Assembly: GCA_020350725.1 (NCBI GenBank)
Contig: CP070719.1
Coordinates: 1,302,202-1,316,346 of the forward strand
From: a bacterium
Lineage (GTDB): Bacteria; BMS3Abin14
Direction of reading: 5' to 3'
DNA length: 14,145 nucleotides
A model generated the notes under the pieces. That model had not been told where the DNA came from and did no database searches. It was given only the letters and a program-made list of their open reading frames with translations. The position numbers and the translations under genes are program-made. This document shows positions 1-14,145 of this stretch, one piece after another; positions within the stretch are counted from its first letter, which is position 1, and every line of letters begins with the position of its first letter.

Positions 1-101
1 ATAAAACCTTTGTTTTAATTCCTCTAAACAACCATACCTCGTTACACTTATACTCACCCGACGTTCGGGAGCCTCATTATTCTGCCGGGGGGACGCGGAG
101 A
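1..101 (-). repeat. Dispersed repeat R, copy 1 (inverted partner at 4548-4650)
   Basis: Read on the minus strand, this stretch matches 4548-4650 on the plus strand. Both contain TCTCCGCGTCCC, then AATGAGGCTCC, then TATCAGTGTAACGAGGTATGG or a near variant, then GAGGAATT, in the same order and with similar spacing. Roughly four fifths of the bases match by eye. The two copies face each other across the purD-purE-tsaC block. No ORF with coding character lies in it. The copy may continue beyond the left edge of the window. Confidence 0.75.
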
Positions 102-151
102 CATAGCGGTGGGGGCGTGGGGGATTTGGGGCGTGGGGGCGAACAAGTGTT

Positions 152-187
152 TGTCATTGCGAACAGTAAACCGCGTGAAGCAATCTG
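152..187 (+). repeat. ATTGCG...GCAAT imperfect hairpin repeat, copy A
   Basis: TGTCATTGCGAACAG is followed after a short spacer by CGCGTGAAGCAATCT. ATTGC can pair with GCAAT. Further copies are at 396-433, 4344-4378 (minus), 5685-5718 (minus), 9286-9320, 9503-9538 and 9588-9625. The form resembles REP-type palindromes mobilised by RAYT transposases in other bacteria, but no such transposase lies in the window. Confidence 0.7.
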
Positions 188-395
188 GGGAGACCCCGCT
201 CGGGGGACGCGCCTTGGAAAAAGGAGCCAGGAGTCAGGGGCCAGGAGTCGGAATAAAGGAGAAAGAACTTTACCACAGAGGACCACAGAGGCGTCCCTGG
301 AGACGCCGCCACCCCTCGACAGGCTCCGTTCAACAAGCTCACGGCAGGCGGGGCAGGCAGAGGGCCACAGTAATTGCGAGGGGGCGAACAAGCGG

Positions 396-433
396 TTGTC
401 ATTGCGAACCGATACTTGAGTGAAGCAATCTCG
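396..433 (+). repeat. ATTGCG...GCAAT imperfect hairpin repeat, copy B
   Basis: TTGTCATTGCGAACCG and GAGTGAAGCAATCTCGGG flank a variable centre. Outer arms match the other copies; the middle differs in sequence but keeps nearly the same length, as expected for a hairpin arm pair around a loop. Confidence 0.7.
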
Positions 434-623
434 GGAGGCCCCGACGCGGGGACTACCCTTTGAAAAAGGAGTCAGGAGCCAGGAGACAGAATTAAGGAGA
501 AGGGATTTACCACAGAGGACCACAGAGATGTTTTCAGTTTTACATTTTGGATTTGGGACCTTGGATTGATCCCTAATGTCTAATGCTCTGATTATTACTG
601 TGAACTGTGAACTAGTCTTTTCG

Positions 624-693
624 AATCACAAATCACGAATCACTAATCACGGCCGTCCCAACTGTGAACCGTGAGCTGTGAACTGTGAACTAG
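624..693 (+). repeat. (AATCACN)x4 + GCSGTYYCAAC + GTGAAC-word module, copy 1
   Basis: Four 7-nt units (AATCACA, AATCACG, AATCACT, AATCACG) occupy 624-651. They are followed by GCCGTCCCAACTGTGAACC and several GTGAACTG words. The same architecture appears near 4222-4258, 4265-4314, 5590-5642, 6713-6775, 7629-7697 and 9731-9789. Confidence 0.8.
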
Positions 694-701
694 AATTTAC
701 C

Positions 702-729
702 AATCACGAATCACGAGTCACGAATCACG
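702..729 (+). repeat. (AATCACN)x4 block, copy 2
   Basis: AATCACG, AATCACG, AGTCACG and AATCACG run without interruption in a perfect 7-nt period. Unlike the other copies, this one is not followed by the GCSGT linker; it runs into GATGTTTACCAACCC and a TTCGACTAAGCTCAG word. Confidence 0.75.
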
Positions 730-792
730 GATGTTTACCAACCCTTCGACTAAGCTCAGGGCAGGCCGTGAACCGGAAACTGAAAACCCTCC

Positions 793-1452
793 CTACAACC
801 TCGATTCCCGCCAGGACAGTTCGTTCAGAAAAGCGGTCACCCGCGAGGCCAGCGTCCCGTCCCGGAGGATGACCGGTGGAGTGGGGACCAGGTTCAGGAT
901 GGTGGGAGGCTGGTAGCCCGGCGTCCACCCGCCGTCCAGGGTCAGGTCGACCCCGAGCTTGATCTCAGGGTGGATCTCGGCCGTCGCCCTGGGGGAGGGC
1001 GAGCCGTTGAAGTTGGCCCCCGTGGCCGTCAGGGGCCGGCCGTAGATCCTGGCCAGTTCCAGGGCCACCGACCAGCCCGGCACCCGGATGCCGACGTTTC
1101 CCGTACCGGCGGTGACCCCCGGCGGGAACCCCTTCGCCGCTTTCAGGACCATGATGAGGGGGCCCGGCCAGAACTCCCGGGCCAGGTCGTCGAAAATGGG
1201 CGGGATATCGGTGGTGACGTCTCTGATAATGCGGACGCTGCCTGCAATCAGGGGAACGGGCTTGCCGTAATCCCAGCTCTTGAGCTTCACCAGGCGAGAG
1301 ATGGCCTTCTGCGACCAGGCATCCCCTAAGATGGCGTAAAAGGTCTCGGTGGGAGCAATGACCAACCCCCCCTTCCGGAGAAGGCCTTTGGCCATTTCCA
1401 GGGCCGGCGTCAGGGCGGGGGGCATTTTCCCCTTCTTTTCATCCTGTGTCAT
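793..1452 (-). CDS. Divergent Sua5/YciO/YrdC-family protein (degenerate tandem paralogue)
   Basis: The 219-residue product has the YrdC fold signature: LRKGGLVIAPTETFY at residues 25-39, GKPVPLIAG at 63-71, FWPGPL at 94-99 and GIRVPG at 121-126. By eye it is about half identical to the neighbouring paralogue at 1572-2204. Family enzymes make threonylcarbamoyl-AMP from threonine, bicarbonate and ATP for tRNA t6A, using a KRSN residue tetrad. Here the KxR motif reads K58-S-W60 and the SxN motif reads G145-A-N147, so R and S are lost while K and N remain. The reading frame is intact and full length, so it is not an ordinary pseudogene; activity or substrate has probably changed. Last gene of the purD-purE operon, 119 bp after its paralogue. 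The start lacks a clear ribosome binding site; Met10 is an alternative. Confidence 0.8.
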   Translation of the reverse strand: MTQDEKKGKMPPALTPALEMAKGLLRKGGLVIAPTETFYAILGDAWSQKAISRLVKLKSWDYGKPVPLIAGSVRIIRDVTTDIPPIFDDLAREFWPGPLIMVLKAAKGFPPGVTAGTGNVGIRVPGWSVALELARIYGRPLTATGANFNGSPSPRATAEIHPEIKLGVDLTLDGGWTPGYQPPTILNLVPTPPVILRDGTLASRVTAFLNELSWRESRL

Positions 1453-1571
1453 GGGACTGTTTTCGACTCACACTCTGCCTCGGGCCGGCTCCACCGGGCC
1501 GGACATCCTGTACCGGCGGTTCCGCCCATTCCTGCTGGCCGGAACCTTCCCCCGTCGGCATCCAGTGGACC

Positions 1572-2204
1572 TCACCGAAGGCCGGACAGGAGAAATTTCG
1601 CCACCTGTTCGTCAAGGGGGCCGGGCCTGACGATGGCCGGCGGGGCAAGGGTCAGATCCAGGACCGTCGAGGGCAGGCCGCCGGGCGTGACCCCCCCGTC
1701 CACAACCAGATCCACCCCCCGTGCTGTTTCAAGGTCTATCTCTCCGGGTGATCTGGGTGGCGGCTGACCGGCGACGTTGGCGCTGGTGGCCGTGATCAAT
1801 CCCCCAAACGCCCGGGCAAGCTCCAGGGCGAAGGACTCCCCCGGAATACGCACTCCAATGGTCGAGGTCCCGGCCGTGATCTCCCCCGGAAAGATGGATC
1901 GGGCGGCCAGCACCAGGGTCAGGGGTCCTGGCCAGAAGGCCCCGGCCAGGGATTGGAACAGGGGCGGCAGTTCCGAAACCGCCTCACGTATCGCCCCGAC
2001 GCTCCCGGCAATGAGCGGGATCGGCTTTCCCCTTTCCCTCGCCTTGAGGAGGGCCAGCCGCCCGACGGCGCCCGGATCAAGGGCGTCACAGGCTATCCCG
2101 TAGAAGGTCTCTGTGGGGACAATGACCAGACCGCCGTTCCTGAGAAGGGCGACCGCCGTCCTCAGGGAATCGGTCCCCGCCGGAACTGGCCCCGACCCTT
2201 CCAT
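1572..2204 (-). CDS. L-threonylcarbamoyladenylate synthase (Sua5/YrdC/TsaC family)
   Basis: The 210-residue protein makes threonylcarbamoyl-AMP, the activated intermediate for t6A at position 37 of ANN-decoding tRNAs; TsaD and partners then transfer the group. The sequence shows LRNGGLVIVPTETFYG at residues 21-36, the KxR motif as K54-A-R56, FWPGPLTLVL at 90-99, GVRIPG at 117-122 and the SxN motif as S141-A-N143. The KRSN tetrad is therefore complete. The length fits the short TsaC-type form without the extra Sua5 C-terminal domain. It starts 12 bp after the purE stop, and AAGGGAG overlapping that stop can serve as the ribosome binding site, so the two genes are probably co-transcribed. With its altered paralogue next door, this is the better candidate for the essential t6A function. 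Confidence 0.9.
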   Translation of the reverse strand: MEGSGPVPAGTDSLRTAVALLRNGGLVIVPTETFYGIACDALDPGAVGRLALLKARERGKPIPLIAGSVGAIREAVSELPPLFQSLAGAFWPGPLTLVLAARSIFPGEITAGTSTIGVRIPGESFALELARAFGGLITATSANVAGQPPPRSPGEIDLETARGVDLVVDGGVTPGGLPSTVLDLTLAPPAIVRPGPLDEQVAKFLLSGLR

Positions 2205-2216
2205 GGGAGGCTCCCT

Positions 2217-2690
2217 TTACCTTTTCCGGTCTTCTGCCAACAGTCGTCTGTGCTCGGACAGCTTTCGGGCGACCTCCTCCCGTTCCAGAGCGAGAATGGA
2301 GACCGCGAGAAAACCCGCATTCTTCGCCCCTCCACCTCCCAGGGCCACCGTGGCCACGGGGATGCCGGCCGGCATCTGGACGGTCGACAGAAGGGAGTCC
2401 AGGCCCTGCAGGGGAGAGGAGGGAATGGGGACCCCAATGACCGGCTTGACGGTCAGGGCCGCCACCGCCCCCGCCAGATGCGCGGCCCATCCCGCTCCGG
2501 CGATGAAGACCGAGCAGCCCTGGCTGTCGGCCTCCTGGACGAGCCTCCGGACGAGGTCCGGGCTGCGGTGGGCCGAGGCCACCTCCATCCGGTGGGGAAT
2601 GCCGAAGTCGGCAAGGACCCGCGCGGCCTCGGACATGACCTCCATGTCCGAGGAGCTGCCCATGAGAATCAGTACGTCGATCTTCTTCAT
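2217..2690 (-). CDS. purE: 5-(carboxyamino)imidazole ribonucleotide mutase PurE
   Basis: PurE moves the carboxylate of N5-CAIR to give CAIR in de novo purine synthesis. The 157-residue protein carries MGSSSDM (residues 10-16), ASAHRSP with the catalytic-region His41 (38-44), a glycine-rich AGAGWAAHLAG segment, and LDSLLSTVQMPAGIPVATV. This is the class I (mutase) pattern and nearly the usual length. PurK, which supplies N5-CAIR in that route, is not in the window. The start has no convincing ribosome binding site: the 15 bases before ATG are AT-rich, with only GGAAA upstream. A 153-bp gap separates it from purD, and the downstream tsaC-type gene follows after 12 bp. Confidence 0.95.
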   Translation of the reverse strand: MKKIDVLILMGSSSDMEVMSEAARVLADFGIPHRMEVASAHRSPDLVRRLVQEADSQGCSVFIAGAGWAAHLAGAVAALTVKPVIGVPIPSSPLQGLDSLLSTVQMPAGIPVATVALGGGGAKNAGFLAVSILALEREEVARKLSEHRRLLAEDRKR

Positions 2691-2843
2691 ATTTATTATT
2701 TTCCGATGCTAGTGAAATTAGAAGGAATATCGTGAACCGATATGATCATCAGAATAATCTCCGTTCTCAGTACCCGGTTCCTATCCCTCAGTCCTCGGTT
2801 CTCTCTCTTAGCCCTTAGTCCTCAGCACTCAGCCCTGCTTTAA
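2691..2843. repeat. purD-purE intergenic spacer with CTCAGTCCT-type words
   Basis: From about 2769 to 2836 the sequence is built from degenerate 7-10 nt words such as CTCAGTCCT, CTTAGCCCTTAG and CTCAGCACTCAG. Similar words occur at about 9203-9229 (ACTTAGTACTTAGGACTCAG). The part next to purE is AT-rich. I see no hairpin with a T tract, so the two pur genes may still be co-transcribed. Confidence 0.5.
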
Positions 2844-4121
2844 CTATTTCAAGTACTTCAGCGCCTTGGCGCCGATATCCCTCCGGTACTGGGCACCATC
2901 CCAATGGATGGCGTCGCAGGCCCTGTAGGCCCGGGAGATGGCGTCGGGGATATCGCTGCCGCGGGCGGTGACCCCCAGGACCCTTCCCCCCGAGGTGACG
3001 ACCCGGCCGTCCTTCTCGGCTGTGCCGGCGTGGAAGACCTTAACATCCTCCATGGCCTCGGCCTCCTCCAGGCCGGAGATGACTTTTCCCTTCTCGTAGG
3101 ATCCCGGGTAGCCGCCGGAGGCCATGACCACGCAGATGGACGCATCGTCGTGCCAGTTGAGGGACACCTCGTCCAGCCGCTCGTCGATCACCGCCTCCAT
3201 GATGCTCTCCAGGTCTCCGTCCAGGCGCATGAGAAGGGGCTGGGCCTCGGGGTCCCCGAAGCGGGCGTTGAACTCAAGGACCCTGGCCACGCCGTCCTCG
3301 ATCATGAGGCCCGCGTACAGAACCCCCTTGTAGGGACGGCCCTCCGCGGCCATGGCCTGTATGGTGGGGATCATGATCCTGTCCATGACCTGGTGGAAGA
3401 GTTCGTCCGTGACGACGGGGGCCGGGGAGTACGCTCCCATCCCACCGGTGTTCGGCCCCTTGTCCCCGTCGAAAATGGGTTTGTGGTCCTGGGACGTGGC
3501 CAGGGGGAGGACTGTTCTGCCGTCCGAGAAGGCCAGGAAGGATGCCTCCTCACCGGTGAGGAACTCCTCGACGACCACCCTGTCTCCGGCGTCCCCGAAC
3601 TGACGGTCCTCCATGATGATCTTCACCGCCTCGTCGGCCTCCTCTATTGTCTGGCAGACGATGGCTCCCTTTCCGGCGGCCAGGCCGTCGGCCTTGACCA
3701 CGATCGGCGCCCCCATCTTCCGGATGTACTCCCGGGCCGGACCGGGAGTATCGAAGACCTCGTAAAAGCCGGTGGGGATGTCGTACTTGGCCAGGAGATT
3801 CTTGGTGAAGACCTTGCTGCCCTCGATCTCGGCCGCCTTCCTCGAGGCCCCGAAGATCCGGAGCCCCGCATCCTCGAAGGCGTCCACGATACCGAGGGTG
3901 AGGGGTAGTTCGGGACCGACGGCCGTGAGGCCGATCTCCTCCTTCCTGGCGAAATCCACCAGGGCCGGAATGTCGGTCACCTCGATGGGGACCACTTCGG
4001 CCTCCCGCGAGATGCCCGCGTTCCCCGGCGCGCAGTACACCTTGTCCACTCCCGCCGACTGGTTGAGCTTCCACACCAGACTGTGCTCCCGTCCACCTCC
4101 GCCCACGATCAACACCTTCAT
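2844..4121 (-). CDS. purD: Phosphoribosylamine--glycine ligase (GAR synthetase) PurD
   Basis: PurD couples glycine to phosphoribosylamine with ATP, the second step of purine synthesis. The 425-residue protein has the N-terminal MKVLIVGGGGREHSL loop, the ATP-grasp segment VVKADGLAAGKG (residues 141-152), the hallmark DHKPIFDGDKGPNTGGMGAY (212-231), and the metal-binding FNARFGDPE (284-292). Length is normal for the family. An in-frame upstream Met at 4223 would add residues encoded by intergenic repeat words; the start at 4121 is preferred because GGGAGG lies 6 bases before it and the family begins with this motif. It is the first gene of a minus-strand cluster with purE and two Sua5/YrdC genes. 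Confidence 0.96.
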   Translation of the reverse strand: MKVLIVGGGGREHSLVWKLNQSAGVDKVYCAPGNAGISREAEVVPIEVTDIPALVDFARKEEIGLTAVGPELPLTLGIVDAFEDAGLRIFGASRKAAEIEGSKVFTKNLLAKYDIPTGFYEVFDTPGPAREYIRKMGAPIVVKADGLAAGKGAIVCQTIEEADEAVKIIMEDRQFGDAGDRVVVEEFLTGEEASFLAFSDGRTVLPLATSQDHKPIFDGDKGPNTGGMGAYSPAPVVTDELFHQVMDRIMIPTIQAMAAEGRPYKGVLYAGLMIEDGVARVLEFNARFGDPEAQPLLMRLDGDLESIMEAVIDERLDEVSLNWHDDASICVVMASGGYPGSYEKGKVISGLEEAEAMEDVKVFHAGTAEKDGRVVTSGGRVLGVTARGSDIPDAISRAYRACDAIHWDGAQYRRDIGAKALKYLK

Positions 4122-4221
4122 GAATACCTCCCGAAATCGTTTCCCACGTATGCAAGATTTAATTTTTGGTGGTTCTTTAATGAATCCAAAATCCAAAGTC
4201 CAAAGTCCAAAAGGACAGGTC

Positions 4222-4258
4222 ACGGTTCACGGTTGGAACCGCCGTGATTCGTGATTCG
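4222..4258 (-). repeat. AATCAC-GCGGT-GTGAAC module, short copy
   Basis: On the minus strand this reads TTCGAATCACGAATCACG, then GCGGTTCCAACCGTGAACCG. It has the module architecture but only two AATCACN units. It lies just inside the full copy at 4265-4314 and nearer purD. Confidence 0.65.
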
Positions 4259-4264
4259 AAAAAA

Positions 4265-4314
4265 CTAGTTCACGGTTGAGACCGCCGTGATTGGTGATTC
4301 GTGATTAGTGATTA
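4265..4314 (-). repeat. (AATCACN)x4 + GCGGTCTCAAC + GTGAAC module, copy 3
   Basis: On the plus strand 4287-4314 is GTGATTG, GTGATTC, GTGATTA, GTGATTA: four units in a 7-nt period. Read on the minus strand, these are followed by GCGGTCTCAACCGTGAACTA. It points towards the purD start. Confidence 0.8.
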
Positions 4315-4343
4315 GTAAATACTAGTTCACCGTTCACAGTTAT

Positions 4344-4378
4344 AGATTGCTTCACCCAGGACGCGGTTCGCAATGACA
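4344..4378 (-). repeat. ATTGCG...GCAAT imperfect hairpin repeat, copy C
   Basis: The plus strand reads AGATTGCTTCACCC, then GCGGTTCGCAATGACA, which is the reverse complement of the form at 152-187. It lies upstream of purD in the same module order as in mosaic I. Confidence 0.7.
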
Positions 4379-4547
4379 ACCGTCTCTTCCCCGCGTCCGC
4401 TCCTCGCCTGCACTGCCTGCCGTGAGCTTGTCGAACGGAGCCTGTCGAAGGGCCCCCTCGCCCATGCGCCCCCTCTGGACTCTGGCCCCTGGGCTCTGGA
4501 CTCATTTCGCCCCCTCGCCCCATCTCCCCCTCGCCCCCTCGGATAGG

Positions 4548-4650
4548 TCTCCGCGTCCCCGCGTCAGAAGAATGAGGCTCCAGACTATCGGGTCAGTATC
4601 AGTGTAACGAGGTATGGAGGTATCGAGGAATTCAACCTCAGGTTCTTTTG
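4548..4650 (+). repeat. Dispersed repeat R, copy 2 (inverted partner at 1-101)
   Basis: It shares TCTCCGCGTCCC, AATGAGGCTCC, GTGTAACGAGGTATGG and GAGGAATTC, in that order, with the reverse complement of 1-101. Together the copies bracket the purD-purE-tsaC cluster as a roughly 100-bp inverted repeat pair about 4.4 kb apart. Confidence 0.75.
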
Positions 4651-4790
4651 CTATTGATCTAAACACCTCGATACTTCGCTACATCGATACTTCGGCACCA
4701 TTAACTTTAAATCGTTCCCTCTGGACGCTGGCCTCTGGGCTCTGGACTCATTTCTCCTCGCGTCCGTTTTTATTCACCCGGTACCTGAGA

Positions 4791-5483
4791 CTATCCCCTG
4801 AACCACTCCACGCCGGTCAGGTGCTCCGCCATGTCCACGACCCTGGACACGACGAGGTCGGCCTCCTCGAGGGGTTCGGCTCCTACGTACACGGTCTTCA
4901 TCCCGAGGGAGCTCCCCACTCTCACGTTCACGTCCAGATCGTCGATGAAAAGGGTGTCGTCAGCGGACGCATTGAGCAGGTCGGCCGCCATCCGATAGGC
5001 TTCCCTGTGGGGTTTGCCCCGGTACCCGACGGCTTCCAGGGCGCAGATACCGTCGAACTGGTCACCGACGACCAGCGCGTCCAGGACCCTCACAGCATGG
5101 CTGGAGGAGGCGTTGGTGAAGATCACCTTGGGGAGGTCGATACGCGACAGAAAATCCCTGAGGGCCTCGTCCGGGGAGAGCAGGTCGGTCAGGGGTACAT
5201 CGTGGACAAACTCGAGGAATTCCGAGGGCTGGACCCCGTGATTCTCCATGAGGCCGCAGAGCGTGGTCCCGTACCTCTGGACATAGTCCCTCCTGAGGTC
5301 CTTCACTCCGGGAGGGGGGAGGGTCGTCAGGACCGAGACGAACCGGTCGATCCTCTCGTTGACCCGATCGAAAACGCCCTTTTCCCTGGGATAAAGAGTG
5401 TTGTCCAGATCGAACAGGATGCCCCGGGCACGGGCGATCTTTTCCGTAAATGTCCTGGCCATCGGTTCAGGCTGCCTTGTCAT
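4791..5483 (-). CDS. HAD-superfamily hydrolase, pyrimidine 5'-nucleotidase-like
   Basis: The 230-residue protein has the HAD motifs in order: ILFDLDNTLYP with nucleophile Asp25 and Asp27 (residues 22-31), VIFTNASSS as motif II, the motif III lysine in GYRGKPHREAY, and TLFIDDLDVNV as motif IV. The DLDNTLYP form with a helical cap (DRVNERIDRFV and following) is typical of the SDT1/PYRNUCASE branch, which dephosphorylates pyrimidine nucleoside monophosphates; phosphoglycolate-phosphatase-like activity cannot be excluded. It is a lone minus-strand gene with repeat mosaics on both sides. No good ribosome binding site precedes Met1; Met8 (5462) is an alternative start since residues 1-7 are not family sequence. 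Confidence 0.85.
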   Translation of the reverse strand: MTRQPEPMARTFTEKIARARGILFDLDNTLYPREKGVFDRVNERIDRFVSVLTTLPPPGVKDLRRDYVQRYGTTLCGLMENHGVQPSEFLEFVHDVPLTDLLSPDEALRDFLSRIDLPKVIFTNASSSHAVRVLDALVVGDQFDGICALEAVGYRGKPHREAYRMAADLLNASADDTLFIDDLDVNVRVGSSLGMKTVYVGAEPLEEADLVVSRVVDMAEHLTGVEWFRG

Positions 5484-5589
5484 CGGTTAAAGGAACGTTG
5501 AGCAGTTAACGGTTCACGGCGAAAAATCAGAGCATTAGAGATTAGAGTATTAGATATAGGGATCAATCCAAAGTCCAAAAAGATGGTTT

Positions 5590-5642
5590 ACAGTTCTCGG
5601 TTCACAGTTGAGAAACCGCCGTGATTCGTGACCTGTGATTCG
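5590..5642 (-). repeat. AATCACN + GCGGTTTCTCAAC + GTGAAC module, copy 5
   Basis: On the minus strand, AATCACA, GGTCACG and AATCACG (three 7-nt units) are followed by GCGGTTTCTCAACTGTGAAC and further GTGAAC-like words. This copy has three units where most others have four. Confidence 0.65.
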
Positions 5643-5684
5643 AAAAGATTAGTTCATCGTTCACCGTTCACAGTTCACAGTCAT

Positions 5685-5718
5685 AGATTGCTTCACTTGG
5701 AAAGCGGTTCGCAATGAC
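5685..5718 (-). repeat. ATTGCG...GCAAT imperfect hairpin repeat, copy D
   Basis: The plus strand reads AGATTGCTTCACTTGG, then AAGCGGTTCGCAATGACA. It has the same outer arms as the copy at 4344-4378 and a different centre. Confidence 0.7.
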
Positions 5719-5891
5719 AACCGCTTGTCCGCCCCCTCTCCCCCTCGCCTCTGCGCCCCCTCGGGTTCCCGCGTCCCCGTATCTGCCTTCCCCCCCGGTA
5801 ACCGGGAACTGATCTGGATTCTGGAACGTTTTACGTTGTCCTATGTTAATATGGTCCTCCAATCACGGCAACCCTTTCAGGGAGGAATGCG

Positions 5892-6611
5892 ATGGAAATG
5901 CAGTGGATGACGATGCCGGAGGTCCGCGAGGAGATCGAGGCCGGGACACCTGTCATCATCCCCTTCGGTTCCACCGAGCAGCACGGGTCCCATCTGCCCC
6001 TGGCAACGGATACGCTGCAGGCCTACGGTGTGGCCGTCCGGGCCGCCCGAAAGGTAAGGGTCGTCGTCGCTCCGCCGGTCCACTACGGTCAGTGCAGCAG
6101 CACCCGGAATCACCCGGGTACGGTTACTATCTCCGCCGACACCCTTCGGGCACTGGCGAAGGACATCCTCCGGTCCCTGTTGGGGCACGGTTTTACCCGG
6201 TTCGTTCTCTTTTCCGGCCACGCAGGACGTATCCACATGGCATCCCTGCGGGAATCCGCCGAGGCGGTCATCCGTGACAACCCGGCCATCAGGATCGCTC
6301 TCGTCAGCGACCTGGACCTGGTCAGGGAAACCTCGGAGGATCTCGTGGCGACCCCCGGCGATGGACACGCCGGAGAGGTCGAGACCTCGCGGATGCTCCA
6401 CCTTCACCCCGATTCCGTCCGCGAGGCGAGGCCCGCGGAGGAGTACCCCTCCCTTCCCAGACACAGGATCGTCCCTGACCCGGAGAGGTACTGGCCGGGG
6501 GGCGTCTGGGGGGATCCGTCCCGGGCAGACGAAGCAAAGGGCAGGGAATTGATCGAACGGTCCGCGGAGGCGCTGGCGGAGATCGTCAGGAAAATGGTGG
6601 AAGAGGGATAG
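5892..6611 (+). CDS. Creatininase-family metal-dependent amidohydrolase
   Basis: The 239-residue protein belongs to the creatininase / creatinine amidohydrolase / MftE superfamily of metal-dependent hydrolases that cut cyclic or peptide-like amide bonds. The signature IPFGSTEQHGSHLPLATD (residues 23-40) carries likely metal ligands Glu29, His31 and Asp40. The usual NGHGGN is replaced by SGHAGR (108-113), and GHAGEVETS (158-166) supplies His159, Glu162 and Glu164. The start has GGGAGG six to seven bases upstream. It stands alone on the plus strand between two minus-strand genes, with no MftA/B/C-like peptide-modification genes beside it, so the substrate cannot be named. It is unlikely to act on creatinine itself in this setting. 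Confidence 0.85.
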   Translation: MEMQWMTMPEVREEIEAGTPVIIPFGSTEQHGSHLPLATDTLQAYGVAVRAARKVRVVVAPPVHYGQCSSTRNHPGTVTISADTLRALAKDILRSLLGHGFTRFVLFSGHAGRIHMASLRESAEAVIRDNPAIRIALVSDLDLVRETSEDLVATPGDGHAGEVETSRMLHLHPDSVREARPAEEYPSLPRHRIVPDPERYWPGGVWGDPSRADEAKGRELIERSAEALAEIVRKMVEEG

Positions 6612-6780
6612 GGTAAGAACAAGTTTTCAGTTTCCAGTTCACGGTTTACAGTTGAAAACCTGCTTACGCCGGATTTACGGGAGTCAGACGCGGGGACGCG
6701 GTGAAAAGTGCTGATCACGAATCACAAATCACTAATAACGGCGGTTCCCTAACCGCAACCTGTGAACTGGAAACTCCAAA
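6612..6780 (+). repeat. Composite intergenic repeat mosaic IV with AATCACN module copy 6
   Basis: TTTTCAGTTTCCAGTTCACGG words are followed by GACGCGGGGACGCGG, then the units GATCACG, AATCACA, AATCACT and AATAACG (6713-6740, four units with a 7-nt period), then GCGGTTCCCTAACCG and GTGAACTGG. The module points at the 3' end of the methyltransferase gene and ends a few bases before its stop codon. This stretch separates two convergent genes, yet I see no classical terminator hairpin. Confidence 0.75.
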
Positions 6781-7563
6781 CTAGTTCCTCTCCATCATCG
6801 CCTCCAGGATGATCGACCCGGCCACCACGACGTTCAGGGAATCTGCATCCCCTGCCATGGGGACACCGACAGGCTCACCCACGTCCAGGAGCCAATCCGA
6901 AAATCCCCTTGCTTCGTTCCCCACAGCCAGGATCGCCCGGGGTGAAAACTCCGCCTCTCGGTGGGACCGTCCGCCCGCCTGGGCGATGTAAATTGTGAAG
7001 CCCTTTGCTGTCAGTGCAGAAGCCCCTTCGACCCCGAAGTCCGGATACCAGGGGAGGTGGAACACACCACCGGCTGAGGCGCGTACAGCCTTCTGCCCGA
7101 AGGGGTCGGCCGTCCCAGGCCCCAGAAGGACCCCCGACACCCCCAGACTCCAGGCGGACCTGATGAGGCCTCCCACGTTACCGGGATCCTGCACGGCGTC
7201 GAGAAGGAGGAGAACGGACCGTTCTCCTCCCGGCGCGAAACCCACCAGGTCCAGGGGAAGAGGTATTCTCGCCACACCCAGAGCGCCCTGGCTCTGCTCG
7301 ACATCGGTTATCTCGCCGAAGAACTCCCCCGCTGCCGAGAACACAGGACCCTCCAGGCTGTCTTCAATCTCCCCGGAAAAAGCTCTCTCCATTGCCGCCC
7401 GAGGATGAAGGACCGTGAACTCGAGGAGCCCCGCTCTCCTCGCCTCTTCGATCACGCGGGGACCTTCGAGGACACAGAGGCCCTTGCGCCGGCGGATCTT
7501 TCTCGACGCCAGAGACCGGATAAGCTTTCTCTTTTCCTTCGAGAGGGGAGGAGTATGATCCAT
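6781..7563 (-). CDS. SpoU/TrmH-family RNA 2'-O-methyltransferase
   Basis: The 260-residue protein transfers methyl from SAM to a ribose 2'-OH in rRNA or tRNA. An N-terminal substrate-binding region (LCVLEGPRVIEEARRAG, residues 29-45) precedes the SPOUT trefoil-knot domain with all three SpoU motifs: motif 1 DAVQDPGNVGGLIRS with Asn129 and Arg135, motif 2 AVGNEARGF (213-221) with Glu217, and motif 3 VGVPMAGDADSLNVVVA (232-248). The extra N-terminal domain suits RlmB/TsnR-type rRNA methylases, but the target nucleotide cannot be read from sequence. There is no ribosome binding site: the bases before ATG are AACTGAAAACTGGAAC, a word type from the neighbouring repeats. It stands alone, flanked by inward-facing repeat modules. 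Confidence 0.88.
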   Translation of the reverse strand: MDHTPPLSKEKRKLIRSLASRKIRRRKGLCVLEGPRVIEEARRAGLLEFTVLHPRAAMERAFSGEIEDSLEGPVFSAAGEFFGEITDVEQSQGALGVARIPLPLDLVGFAPGGERSVLLLLDAVQDPGNVGGLIRSAWSLGVSGVLLGPGTADPFGQKAVRASAGGVFHLPWYPDFGVEGASALTAKGFTIYIAQAGGRSHREAEFSPRAILAVGNEARGFSDWLLDVGEPVGVPMAGDADSLNVVVAGSIILEAMMERN

Positions 7564-7850
7564 GTTCCAGTTTTCAGTTTTCCGTAGGCGTTTCGCAACC
7601 GGGAAGTCGTTGTGATTCCTTAACGAACGGTTCCCAGTTCACGGTTCACAGTTCGCAGTTGAGACCGCCGTGATTAGTGATTCGTAATTTGTGATTCGTT
7701 TTTTCTCCGTGTCTCCGCGTCCGCTCTTTCGCCCCCTCGCCCCATCGCCCTACCGCCCCCTCGGGCCCCCGTGTCCCCGCGTCCCCGCGTCTCCGCGTCC
7801 GCTTTTCACCCCCTCGGGGGGCATCGAGTTCGTTAATTTATTCTAATATT
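7564..7850 (-). repeat. Composite intergenic repeat mosaic V (gene-free)
   Basis: Read on the minus strand towards the methyltransferase start: GAGGGGGTGAAAAGCGG, GGACGCGGAGACGCGGGGAC words, GAGGGGGCGGTAGGGCG words, another GGACGCGGAGACACGG, then four AATCACN-type units (7697-7670), GCGGTCTCAACTGCGAAC and GTGAACCGTGAACTGG words (to about 7629). The order is that of the other mosaics without an ATTGCG element. Nothing gene-like. Confidence 0.8.
7629..7697 (-). repeat. (AATCACN)x4 + GCGGTCTCAAC + GTGAAC module, copy 7
   Basis: On the plus strand 7670-7697 reads GTGATTA, GTGATTC, GTAATTT, GTGATTC, four units with a 7-nt period. On the minus strand they lead into GCGGTCTCAACTGCGAACTG and GTGAACCG words. 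Confidence 0.78.
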
Positions 7851-7860
7851 CAAATATCAA

Positions 7861-7889
7861 TTGACAGCCATGGTGTTGAAGGTTACTAT
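7861..7889 (+). promoter_or_regulatory. Sigma-70-type promoter for the thioredoxin operon
   Basis: A perfect -35 TTGACA (7861-7866) is followed by a 17-bp spacer and the -10 hexamer TACTAT (7884-7889). Transcription would start near 7896 and give a leader of about 208 bases before the thioredoxin ATG. The spacer contains ATGGTGTTGA (7870-7879), whose inverted copy is at 7939-7948. Confidence 0.65.
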
Positions 7890-8103
7890 CACTTATATCA
7901 CAGGTGGAGGGCAAGATTGATGGATGGATCCTGATCCATCAACACCATCGTTGGTCATACGAAAAGAACCCAGGGCGGGGTGAGATGCCCCGCTGATCTT
8001 TTGAGTTCACACAGGACGCCCGGCGTCAAGATCACCGCTGAGCGTATGCTATTAGGACATTTTCAGACTCACCTGAATTCCTGAGAAAATTAAGGAGGTT
8101 GCA
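7890..8103 (+). promoter_or_regulatory. Long structured 5' leader of the thioredoxin operon
   Basis: Several pairings can be seen. Hairpin I: TTGATGGAT (7917-7925) with ATCCATCAA (7934-7942), 9 bp, 8-base loop. Hairpin II: GCGGGG (7975-7980) with CCCCGC (7988-7993), followed by TGATCTTTT. Hairpin III: GACGC (8015-8019) with GCGTC (8023-8027). A distal pairing CATACG (7956-7961) with CGTATG (8043-8048) would enclose hairpins II and III in a closed multistem. It matches no riboswitch class I can recognise. Hairpin II with its short T run might act as an attenuator. A strong TAAGGAGG binding site closes the leader five bases before ATG. Confidence 0.45.
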
Positions 8104-8433
8104 ATGGCAGAGAGCAAAAACGTCAAGGAGTTCACCGACGCTAACTTCGAACAGGAGGTTCTCCAGTCCGACAGACCCGTTCTGGTGGATTTCTGGGCGG
8201 TCTGGTGCGCCCCCTGCAGGACGATTGCTCCCGTAGTCGATGAGATCGCCGACACCTACGGCACGAAGATCAAAGTGGGCAAGATCAATGTTGATGAGAA
8301 CGCCAAGACGCCCAGCGAGTACGGGATTCGGAGCATTCCCACGATCATGCTCTTCAAGGACGGCAAGGTCGCCGAACAGGTCATCGGTGCCAACGCCGCG
8401 GAGATAAAGCGGATCGTGGAACAGAACACCTGA
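8104..8433 (+). CDS. trxA: Thioredoxin
   Basis: This 109-residue cytoplasmic dithiol oxidoreductase reduces protein disulfides and can serve ribonucleotide reductase, whose gene lies in this window. It has the thioredoxin fold signature [19 protein letters not shown] with active-site Cys35 and Cys38, and the cis-proline Pro79 in SIPT. The active site is WCAPC rather than the classical WCGPC; Ala at this position occurs in natural thioredoxins and may shift the redox potential. No signal peptide. TAAGGAGG lies five bases before the ATG. A zinc-ribbon gene follows 18 bp after the stop, and a strong terminator closes the pair. A thioredoxin reductase gene is not in the window. Confidence 0.95.
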
Positions 8434-8451
8434 TGCCGCCGGAAGCCCGGG

Positions 8452-8634
8452 ATGAGTTACGCCATCTTTGAGCTGAAATGCGCCGGCTGCGGCCTGGAGT
8501 ATGCACAGCTTCTCTCCGAGGAGGAAGGTGAACTGCCCATACCCTGCCCCACCTGTGATACCGACCTCGAAAAAGGGAGGAAGATTAGCGGCGAGGAACT
8601 TCTGTCCTGCGGGTTCAGCTCCGGAGGCGGGTGA
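8452..8634 (+). CDS. Small zinc-ribbon protein
   Basis: The 60-residue protein has two CxxC knuckles, Cys10-Cys13 (CAGC) and Cys32-Cys35 (CPTC), spaced as in FmdB-like or rubredoxin-like zinc ribbons, then a charged stretch and a flexible C-terminal FSSGGG tail with Cys53. It probably binds one zinc. I do not recognise a named family and assign no reaction. It is co-directional with thioredoxin, 18 bp downstream, with a weak GGAAG upstream of the ATG and before a common terminator. This suggests co-transcription and possibly a redox or regulatory partnership. Confidence 0.75.
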   Translation: MSYAIFELKCAGCGLEYAQLLSEEEGELPIPCPTCDTDLEKGRKISGEELLSCGFSSGGG

Positions 8635-8676
8635 TAGATCGGTTTGCCGGCGGTCGCCGGTACCGGGTCAAATGGA

Positions 8677-8709
8677 AAAGGGGGCGGCTTTCGCCGCCCC
8701 CTTTCTTTT
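8677..8709 (+). terminator. Bidirectional rho-independent terminator
   Basis: GGGGGCGGC (8680-8688) pairs with GCCGCCCCC (8693-8701) around the loop TTTC; AAA and TTT add three more pairs. TTTCTTTT follows on the plus strand. On the minus strand the loop is GAAA and the stem is followed by CTTTTCC. It sits between the converging thioredoxin pair and ferredoxin gene and can end both transcripts. Confidence 0.9.
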
Positions 8710-8728
8710 CGTGGTGAAACCTGCCGTA

Positions 8729-8899
8729 TTAATCGGCGGGGAAGATAGCCTCAACCGGACAGACGGCCACGCAGTCTCCACAGTCGGTGCAGAGTTCGGG
8801 GTCGATCACGTAGATCTCACCCTCGCTGATAGCCTCAACCGGGCATTCGTCGACACAGCTTCCACAGCCTGTACAATCCTCATTAATCACGTGAGCCAA
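8729..8899 (-). CDS. 2x[4Fe-4S] ferredoxin, TTG start
   Basis: This 56-residue electron carrier has two classical cluster motifs: [11 protein letters not shown] with CP (Cys9, 12, 15, 19) and [11 protein letters not shown] with CP (Cys37, 40, 43, 47). It is a clostridial-type bacterial ferredoxin, cytoplasmic, donating low-potential electrons. The protein begins MAHVINEDC. The start is read as TTG at 8899 because a complete AAAGGAGGTGA ribosome binding site ends eight or fewer bases before it. The only in-frame alternative, GTG at 8908, lies inside that site, and the ATG at 8903 is out of frame and soon stopped. A gene caller restricted to ATG would miss it. It converges on the thioredoxin pair at a shared terminator. 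Confidence 0.93.
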
Positions 8900-8904
8900 G
8901 GCAT

Positions 8905-8915
8905 TCACCTCCTTT
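8905..8915 (-). promoter_or_regulatory. Extended ribosome binding site deciding the ferredoxin TTG start
   Basis: The minus strand reads AAAGGAGGTGA, the full complement of the usual 16S rRNA tail. The distance to TTG at 8899 is appropriate, while the upstream GTG overlaps the site. Confidence 0.85.
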
Positions 8916-8948
8916 AGACGTTAAAAGTTCCCCTCAACAAACAGAGCT

Positions 8949-8977
8949 TCTGTAACCCCCACGGTTGGAAAAGTCAA
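8949..8977 (-). promoter_or_regulatory. Candidate promoter for the ferredoxin gene
   Basis: On the minus strand TTGACT (8977-8972) is followed by a 17-bp spacer and TACAGA (8954-8949). The -35 has five of six consensus bases; the -10 is weak. Its position 50-80 bases before the start codon fits a short leader. Confidence 0.4.
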
Positions 8978-9285
8978 CCACAAAAACGCCGGTTTCCCGG
9001 CCGTGACCCGATAACCCACGGCGAGGCGGGGAGGAAATGCGGACGCGGGGAGAAAAGAGTCCAGAGGCCAGAGGCCAGTGTCCAGAGGGGGCGCATGGGC
9101 GAGGGGGAGATAGGGCGATGGGGCGAAGGGGGAAGGATGTATAGTTCTGAGAGATAAGTGATAAGAGATAAGTATACTGAGCTGTTACTCATCACATATC
9201 ACTTAGTACTTAGGACTCAGCTCTCAGTTAGCACCTCAAACGTGGAACGTGCATCACCGGACGCGGGGACGAGGAGAGTAACAAA

Positions 9286-9320
9286 GTCATCGCGAGCTGT
9301 GTGTGAGCGAAGCGATCTCG
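9286..9320 (+). repeat. ATCGC...GCGAT hairpin repeat, variant copy E
   Basis: GTCATCGCGAGC is followed by GAGCGAAGCGATCTCGG. Compared with the other copies, ATTGC has become ATCGC and GCAAT has become GCGAT, so one T-A pair is replaced by C-G with pairing kept. Confidence 0.65.
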
Positions 9321-9397
9321 GAAAAACCTTTACCACAGAGGACCACAGTGGCGCCCCTTGGGACGCCGCCACAGAGAGCCACAGTAATTGTGAGGGT

Positions 9398-9480
9398 GCG
9401 AGGGGGCGAGGGGGAGAAATGAGTCCAGAGCCCAGAGGCCAGTGTCCAGAGTGGGGCTAAAGGCGTACGCGGGGACGCGG
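9398..9480 (+). repeat. 83-bp perfect direct repeat, copy 1
   Basis: It is identical base for base to 9637-9719 by direct comparison. It contains the GAGGGGGCGAGGGGGAGAAA, CCAGAGCCCAGAGGCCAG and GGCGTACGCGGGGACGCGG words as one unit. The next base differs (A at 9481, G at 9720). Confidence 0.92.
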
Positions 9481-9502
9481 AGACACGGTGAGAAAAAGCG
9501 TC

Positions 9503-9538
9503 TGTCATTGCGAACAGGAAACCGCATGAAGCAATCCC
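9503..9538 (+). repeat. ATTGCG...GCAAT imperfect hairpin repeat, copy F
   Basis: CTGTCATTGCGAACAGG, then ACCGCATGAAGCAATCCCG. It lies between the two 83-bp direct repeats. Confidence 0.7.
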
Positions 9539-9587
9539 GATGGCCGAGACTGCTTCGGCTCTGAAACAGCCTCCCAGTGACTGTTGC

Positions 9588-9625
9588 AGTCATTGCGAAC
9601 GGGAAACCGCGTGAAGCAATCTCGG
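9588..9625 (+). repeat. ATTGCG...GCAAT imperfect hairpin repeat, copy G
   Basis: AGTCATTGCGAACGGG, then ACCGCGTGAAGCAATCTCGG. It is closely similar to the copies at 152-187 and 9503-9538 and lies just before the second 83-bp repeat. Confidence 0.7.
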
Positions 9626-9636
9626 GAAATGCGGAC

Positions 9637-9719
9637 GCGAGGGGGCGAGGGGGAGAAATGAGTCCAGAGCCCAGAGGCCAGTGTCCAGAGTGGGGCTAAA
9701 GGCGTACGCGGGGACGCGG
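9637..9719 (+). repeat. 83-bp perfect direct repeat, copy 2
   Basis: It is identical to 9398-9480, with a start-to-start distance of 239 bp. The lack of any mismatch points to recent duplication or gene conversion. Confidence 0.92.
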
Positions 9720-9730
9720 GGAAAAAGACG

Positions 9731-9789
9731 AATCACAAATTACGAATCACTAATCACGGCAGTCTCAACCGTGAACGGTGAACTGTGAA
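9731..9789 (+). repeat. (AATCACN)x4 + GCAGTCTCAAC + GTGAAC module, copy 8
   Basis: Units AATCACA, AATTACG, AATCACT and AATCACG (9731-9758) are followed by GCAGTCTCAACCGTGAACGG and two more GTGAAC words. It points to the 3' end of nrdJ. Confidence 0.8.
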
Positions 9790-9900
9790 CTATTCTATTG
9801 GATTTTGGATTCGCAACTTTGGACCGGTCTCTAATCTCTAATTTCTAATCCTCTAATGCTCTGCTTCCCAACTGTGAACCGTGAACTATTATTCAGTTGT

Positions 9901-13408: not shown

Positions 13409-13492
13409 CTGTTTGGATCACCCGCGACCCGGGATCTTGAACCCGGGAGGTGGGACTTGGGACCTGGAACCTGAACCCCGGAACACGGTACA

Positions 13493-14145
13493 ATGAATAA
13501 ACGCAAGGACATCTACCGCCTGACCTCCCTGGTCCAGGCAGCCGGTTGAGCGGCCAAGCTGGGTCCGGCGGACCTGCACGAGCTCCTCAAGCCTTTGGCC
13601 GCCAGCAGTGAGCGCGACCCCCGCCTCCTGGTGGGATCGGAGACGGCCGACGACGCCGCGGTCTTCCGTCTCGACGACAGGACCGCCCTGGTCCAGACCC
13701 TCGACATCATAACGCCCATCGTGGACGACCCCTTCGACTTCGGCTACATCGCCGCGGTCAACGCCCTGTCGGACGTGTACGCCATGGGAGGCACACCCCT
13801 GACGGCCCTGACCTTTCTCGCCTTCGACACCTGCGACCTCGACATCACGGGGGCGGGGTACATCCTGATCGGGGCCCTGGCGGCCCTGGCAGAGGCTCGA
13901 TGCGCACTGATCGGGGGGCACACCGTCATGGACCCGGAGATCAAGTTCGGTCTGTCCGTCACGGGTACCGTTCATCCGGACCGGGTGCTGACCAACGCAG
14001 GCGCCCGGGACGGGGACCTGATCTACCTGACCAAGCCCCTCGGAACCGGCATCACGGCGACGGCCCTGAAGGCGCAGCTGGCCCCGGACGAGCTGGTGGA
14101 GAAGGCCACGGGGTGGATGAAGACCCCGAACCGGGAGGCCGCGGC
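13493..14145 (+). CDS. selD: Selenide, water dikinase SelD, selenocysteine-containing (3' end beyond window)
   Basis: SelD makes selenophosphate from selenide and ATP, the selenium donor for selenocysteine. The frame reads MNKRKDIYRLTSLVQAAG, then TGA at codon 19 (13547-13549), then AAKLGPADLHELLKPL and on without another stop for about 200 codons to the window edge. The family has Cys or Sec at exactly this place (Cys17 of the E. coli enzyme), followed by the essential lysine (here Lys22), so TGA encodes selenocysteine. Further family motifs are SETADDAAVFRL, TLDIITPIVDDPFDFGYIAA, NALSDVYAMGGTPLTAL and IGGHTVMD. About 217 codons of a usual 340-350 are present. No strong ribosome binding site precedes the ATG; an in-frame TGA at 13472-13474 rules out much earlier starts. 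A stop-respecting caller would start this gene late or miss it. Confidence 0.93.
13547..13590 (+). promoter_or_regulatory. Sec UGA codon with candidate bacterial SECIS hairpin
   Basis: Directly after the TGA (13547-13549), GGTCC (13562-13566) pairs with GGACC (13570-13574) around GGC. AGCT on either side (about 13557-13560 and 13582-13585) can close a lower stem with internal mismatches. The apical stem starts within 12-17 bases of the UGA and contains GGUC, as expected for a SelB-bound bacterial SECIS. The fold was judged by eye. Confidence 0.6.

Follow-up and report, generated by a model that had tools for sequence, protein, structure and literature searches.

The intergenic regions of the window, meaning the whole 14,145-bp stretch of DNA analyzed here, carry mosaics of short repeat words that probably represent a lineage-specific, polarized composite interspersed repeat, present in at least 148 copies between unrelated genes and spread by homology-driven copying. 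The window is one whole contig of an uncultured bacterium's 2,777,163-bp genome, whose 113 contigs are joined by 100-N spacers (completeness 100%, contamination 0.98%). A simple trained model, applied to the entire genome, called 2428 genes (82.7% coding), and repeats were compared genome-wide between intergenic and coding DNA. The initial annotation, made from the window alone, had described six gene-free stretches assembled from one set of modules and filling about a quarter of the window. The words were found where it had placed them or close by, and the six stretches total 3522 bp, or 24.9% of the window.

Tandem runs with a period of 7 reached 0.58/kb between genes. Genes gave 0.007/kb, and local shuffles of the intergenic DNA gave 0.006/kb. 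Harmonics appeared at 14 and 21, and period 8 formed a second class of intergenic tandem runs. The vocabulary comprises about a dozen words, mainly 7- and 8-bp tandem units, and a 32-bp hairpin-like element H (TCATTGCGAAC..GTGAAGCAATC) that is similar to repetitive extragenic palindromes (REPs). Among the commonest tandem units are W (AATCCAA/AGTCCAA), F (AATCACN), P (AGTCCAG/AGGCCAG), E (GTGAACN), U (CTAATCT), K (GATAAGW), B (CAGTATT), M (GGGGCGAG), D (ACGCGGGG), and C (CCACAGAGGA). Q reads GCGGTYTCAAC, and S is a dispersed element (TTCGACAGGCTCAGG). Words P, M, D, K, and B make up the left block and W, F, Q, E, and U the right block; H, C, and S belong to neither. Word density was 10 to 250 times higher between genes than in genes, with the single exception of Q alone (1.9 times). 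By inspection, P resembles inverted W and K resembles inverted U/F, with 6 of 7 positions alike; folding gave no support for these likenesses.

When mosaics were defined by four or more words, 179 were counted genome-wide. Their order and orientation, which the initial annotation had proposed to test against chance, exceeded it by a wide margin. Adjacent different words lay on the same strand in 1220 of 1320 cases (100 discordant), compared with a mean of 662 and a maximum of 716 after random flips, and order asymmetry was 3785, compared with 594 ± 69 (maximum 855) after shuffling within mosaics. The initial view that these are not random satellites is supported. Orientation was almost perfectly concordant for M (182:0), D (118:0), C (53:0), P (179:2), F (210:2), and H (143:6), and a notable inverted minority occurred only in E (246:22) and W (122:10). 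The composite runs in one orientation from a left block P-M-D-(K-k-B) through a middle H-(C) to a right block of repeating W-F-Q-E(-U-E) units. Both blocks were present in 148 of the 179 mosaics, strictly left then right in 138 of these 148, and many copies carry the left block alone or the right block alone. Within the window, positions 1 to 792 had been said to show nearly the same module order as the reverse complement of 4122 to 4650. Comparison of the first mosaic (I1) with the reverse complement of the second (I2, 4122 to 4790) recovered three colinear blocks (139 bp at 82%, 120 bp at 77%, and 77 bp at 87%), and the two word strings share a common subsequence of 8, compared with 5.4 in shuffles (P = 0.007).

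The distances between words are fixed as well. The spacer was 1 nt for F-Q in 28/28 and for Q-E in 22/23 cases, 11 nt for E-F in 64/71, 8 nt for W-F in 58/65, and 7 nt for H-E in 52/64, and identity of the spacer sequence is about 56 to 85%. Pairwise mosaic alignments reach about 475 bp at 82 to 96% identity; in the 240 segments of at least 200 bp, 59% of the length aligns to another locus over 200 bp or more. Alignment ends lay inside words in 64% of cases versus 52% expected. The copies share a head, GACGCGGGGAGAAATGAGTCCAGAG, and end in a short tail that follows the last GTGAACYGTGAAC; their flanks are not conserved. The right block is a higher-order tandem repeat with units of about 57 to 106 bp, and unit lengths step mostly by 7 (F-QE of 57, 64, 71, and 78 bp, F-EW of 98 and 105 bp), with some other lengths too.

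Because the spacers are fixed, their sequence is conserved, and alignments extend over 200 to 475 bp, the mosaics descend from one composite. They are copies of a single ancestral polarized composite, varied by gain and loss of heptamers, duplication, and deletion, with free reordering rare and internal variation mostly in heptamer steps. Common descent thus explains order and orientation without functional constraint. The earlier picture was of an element that grows, loses, and reorders units under some constraint. Growth and loss fit the whole-heptamer lengths of 57 to 78 bp; reordering mostly does not fit the strict left-right succession, and a present constraint on freely assembling units gives way to descent as the source of the fixed order.

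Related genomes, in which the initial annotation had proposed to look for the modules, yielded most of the single words and none of the composite. In the family set of 12 genomes, namely this genome and 11 relatives, H was present in 11, W in 9, F in 7, and P in 5. The head junction and the F-Q junction, with 138 and 34 copies in this genome, were searched in the 11 relatives with 0 copies of either. The single words are old and shared; the assembled composite was found only in this lineage, to which its expansion is specific. Orthologous spacers of the relatives hold other words. The purH-purD spacer contains P in G009 and G003, W-type words in G011 and G006, C in G007, and a CGATACTT word in G008; the purD-purE spacer of relatives contains P, U, and GTTGGAC words, and the creatininase-rlmB spacer contains CGAAGTAT, W, D+M, and GTTCAGR words. 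Such words are often paired as an array and an inverted array, as are the solitary W arrays of this genome, which were inverted in 16 of 17 close pairs (small clusters). In G003, an S element (CCTGCCCTGAGCCTGTCGAAGG) lies inside a P array (L222:1366-1420), an apparent nested insertion.

The spacer between rlmB and the thioredoxin gene (trx) records a gain. It is short in G009, G007, and G006, which have the same gene order, and contains the conserved promoter block TATTCTAATATTC..TTGACA-17-TACTAT without the mosaic I5. The window has the same promoter, which promoter calling also picked up, with a mosaic of about 260 bp (7564 to 7825) between promoter and rlmB start codon. Since the relatives' spacer is short with an intact promoter, I5 was inserted into a formerly short spacer and is not ancestral. 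In G003, the promoter block is accompanied by an unrelated insertion, again without I5; this element (L235:2366-2690) is a different, twice-repeated sequence, TGATGACTTCGCAAAAAGTCATCAATGCGCC.., and as an unrelated repeat it indicates that this spacer was entered independently.

In the mechanism we favor, slippage or duplication, in a 7-nt register, would give rise to heptamer arrays. These would first exist as short foldback arrays, several of which would have been joined once in this lineage to give the composite. The composite would then have been copied among intergenic sites. Homology-driven events between similar spacers would be the likeliest route, whether as gene conversion, ectopic recombination, or template switching. 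Copies would be tolerated mostly just downstream of genes; mosaics lie closer to gene 3' ends (median 27 to 38 bp) than to 5' ends (95 to 154 bp), in a mixed gene context. Arrays would later change length by heptamers and by unequal exchange of the 60- to 105-bp units, and no host function would be required. An orientation set by the leading strand was tried as a candidate and rejected as weak (agreement with local GC skew in 36/53, P = 0.013, on short contigs).

Several points weigh against this mechanism. The copying step itself is inferred, and homologous recombination poorly explains entry into a mosaic-free spacer such as rlmB-trx. Dispersal was mostly not very recent, because just 6 interior near-identical pairs (at least 94% over at least 100 bp) were found. 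Mosaics show a modest co-orientation with flanking genes (88:49 and 86:52) that pure neutrality does not predict. Their density is very uneven, with 19 per 100 kb in contigs shorter than 15 kb versus 1.3 per 100 kb in contigs longer than 60 kb. A word occurs within 150 bp of 59% of contig ends versus 8% at random, so the repeats break the assembly; such breakage accounts for only part of the uneven density.

The main rival, which we hold possible and clearly less likely than homology-driven copying, is a nonautonomous transposable composite moved whole by a trans-acting transposase, in the manner of miniature inverted-repeat transposable elements or BOX. A defined head and short tail, strict polarity, lineage-specific expansion, and the gain beside an intact promoter at rlmB-trx would all fit, and the genome has two Y1 (IS200/REP-type) transposase genes. 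The ends speak otherwise: the head GACGCGGGGAGAAATGAG and the tail GTGAAC..TGT are not complementary and so form no terminal inverted repeats, and the longest flank matches equaled those of mismatched pairs, although with such fuzzy ends a short target-site duplication could escape. Neither Y1 gene is flanked by H elements or composite heads; no H or P lies nearby, and one has F/E/S words at about 500 bp. The many left-only and right-only copies are also at odds with movement as a whole. An origin through REP-associated tyrosine transposases, or through telomerase-like or other writing by a reverse transcriptase, was not supported, the Y1 genes being without flanking repeats and no PF00078 match being found in this genome.

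A more speculative reading, to which we give only a small chance, is that an undescribed shared process writes 7-nt foldback arrays into the spacers of many unrelated bacteria and phages with a recurrent vocabulary (for example, GATTTTG and its inverted partner), and that it has here built a polarized satellite-like element that spreads as a unit. Among short periods, 7 was the most frequent across 80 loci of many phyla. The W word TTGGAYTTTGGAYTTTGGA occurred in 15/374 genomes outside the family, and a reversed control pattern in 5/386 genomes, 3 of those in the family. Viral contigs contained a 23-bp form of W in 20 stretches, and in several of these an inverted partner lies about 30 to 150 bp away. 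Perfect (ATTTTGG)n arrays were seen in viral contigs at L304:1648-1710 and at positions 2605 and 12287 of L290; in L304 the array and its inverted copy are closely spaced around a very short loop, and an array in L290 directly precedes an ATG. In G040, a genome outside the family with 45 W hits, W appears to lie within a coding region of a gene similar to rRNA methyltransferases (L263:1500). Carriage of the composite by plasmids or phages was rejected, there being no plasmid match and six F-Q matches in viral contigs without other words, about the number expected by chance.

It is unlikely that a host role of the mosaics, as RNA hairpin, terminator, insulator, or nucleoid or protein binding site, keeps order and orientation. 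The weak co-orientation with genes would agree with such a role, as would the foldback arrays of relatives: of 10 of their spacers tested, 7 folded more stably than shuffled sequence (z about -1.9 to -4.3). Whole mosaics, in contrast, fold little better than other spacers (median z -1.2 versus -0.8) and gave no Rfam match, and structured RNA was rejected as their basis; moreover, the orthologous spacers of relatives hold other words or none, and the gene context is mixed.

Still less credible is the idea that mobile words came together separately at each spacer, constrained by sequence or structure. It would account for the solitary words of this genome (U 40, B 31, and W 28 singletons) and for some identical words in unrelated genomes. 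It is largely refuted by the fixed 1-, 7-, 8-, and 11-nt spacers with conserved sequence and by the long alignments, all marks of common descent, and H is almost never solitary, occurring nearly always within the composite. An artefact of this metagenome-assembled genome is highly improbable: contig ends are rich in words and some "identical" copies resemble, and probably are merely, contig-end overlaps, but the mosaics are bordered by a wide variety of unique genes and are often interior to contigs, and the same words recur in relatives that were assembled independently. Two organisms in one bin were ruled out by codon and tetranucleotide identity; codon usage of mosaic-rich and mosaic-poor contigs agrees (r = 0.999), which makes a mixed bin unlikely.

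Heptanucleotide repeats, or short tandemly repeated repetitive sequences (STRRs), have been described in Calothrix and Nostoc, as GGGAATC in Xanthomonas (PMC4692102), and as TAACTGA in Beggiatoaceae (PMC4679880). According to PMC4679880 and PMC4692102, Mrazek et al. 2007 proposed polymerase slippage in a 7-nt register. The mosaics share with STRRs (PMC4692102, PMC4679880, and PMC2670836) 7-bp degenerate intergenic tandem units that form convergent inverted pairs and vary at the same gene pairs, and an intergenic excess of 7-bp periodicity and array length steps of 7 nt were found here too. STRRs are described word by word, whereas here about a dozen words form one polarized composite with fixed spacers. 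BOX of Streptococcus pneumoniae has three modules, inverted ends, and target-site duplications (PMC3049150). It is likewise a modular, dispersed small composite with fixed part order and a variable copy number of an internal tandem module; its inverted ends and target-site duplications were both looked for here and neither was found. Bacterial interspersed mosaic elements (BIMEs) and NIMEs are, in the account given in PMC3049150, interspersed composites of several regularly arranged short motifs; BIMEs are described there as based on palindromic units, while tandem heptamers and octamers dominate here. A literature search for the words themselves found nothing relevant. Building blocks and layout resemble those of heptanucleotide repeats, BOX, and BIMEs, and the polarized many-word composite is the new part.

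The H element alone is similar to CGTC-tagged REPs, including rickettsial RPE-4 and RPE-6 (PMC3733652), in its TGTC/CGTC-like start, the complementary AT at the stem base, and the lack of a dedicated transposase. The CGTC-REPs have an 8- to 9-bp stem and a 4- to 5-nt loop, whereas H has an imperfect stem and a variable middle of 12 to 16 nt and is tied to the composite, so that it falls outside their stem-loop definition despite its TGTC tag. Throughout the genome the outer arms of H are constant and the middle is variable. The inner pair seems to covary across genera of the family (AC/GT, GC/GC, and GGC/GCC), which suggests a conserved hairpin with a GA/GAA internal loop.

The mosaics of the window and their parts are listed in Table 1; I6 has the most words of any copy in the genome. 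Other features of the window include a tandem pair of Sua5/YciO/YrdC-family paralogues (793 to 2204, minus strand; 146.7 and 170.8 bits) and a partial selenophosphate synthetase gene (13493 to 14145, plus strand) whose codon 19, within the motif GUAAK, is an in-frame TGA. Its product is probably a selenocysteine-containing SelD that standard open reading frame calling overlooked. A degenerate array, GGGACTTGGGACCTGGAACCTGAACC, lies just upstream of selD (13418 to 13490); its word is outside the composite vocabulary.

Table 1. Mosaics of the window, their parts, and the adjoining promoter block
Feature	Positions	Strand	Description
Mosaic I1	1..792	+	M H C S H C U E F Q E F S E; truncated by contig start
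Mosaic I2	4122..4790	-	Upstream of purD; 5'->3' on -: P D M P S H E U F Q F Q E W
Mosaic I3	5463..5830	-	Divergent HAD/creatininase spacer; D M H E F E W U E on -
Mosaic I4 (short)	6612..6780	+	Between convergent creatininase and rlmB-like genes; D, F on +; inverted E at left end
Mosaic I5	7564..7825	-	Between rlmB-like start codon and thioredoxin promoter
Thioredoxin promoter block, conserved	7837..7889	+	TATTCTAATATTC...TTGACA-17-TACTAT; adjoins I5, outside mosaic
Mosaic I6	9040..9890	+	P M K k B D C M P D H H M P D F Q E W U E
K-k-B foldback in I6	9153..9216	+	GATAAGTGATAAGAGATAAG ... TATCACTTAGTACTTAG; fold z -1.8
P-D block in I6	9417..9489	+	AAATGAGTCCAGAG...ACGCGGGGACGCGG
H element in I6	9504..9536	+	TCATTGCGAAC...TGAAGCAATC, REP-like
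Second H element of I6	9589..9621	+	
P-D local duplicate in I6	9656..9720	+	Almost exact copy of 9417-9489
F-Q-E block in I6	9731..9790	+	AATCACN heptamers, then GCAGTCTCAAC, then GTGAACN; 1-nt spacers

Bacterial heptanucleotide repeats, usually studied singly, can thus form a hierarchical, polarized composite that fills many spacers of a compact genome, while in related genera the orthologous spacers carry different words from a partly shared vocabulary. Composite repeats of this kind help explain why such genomes break up into many contigs. The origin and movement of 7-bp repeats becomes testable, as close strains would reveal slippage, recombination, or transposition.

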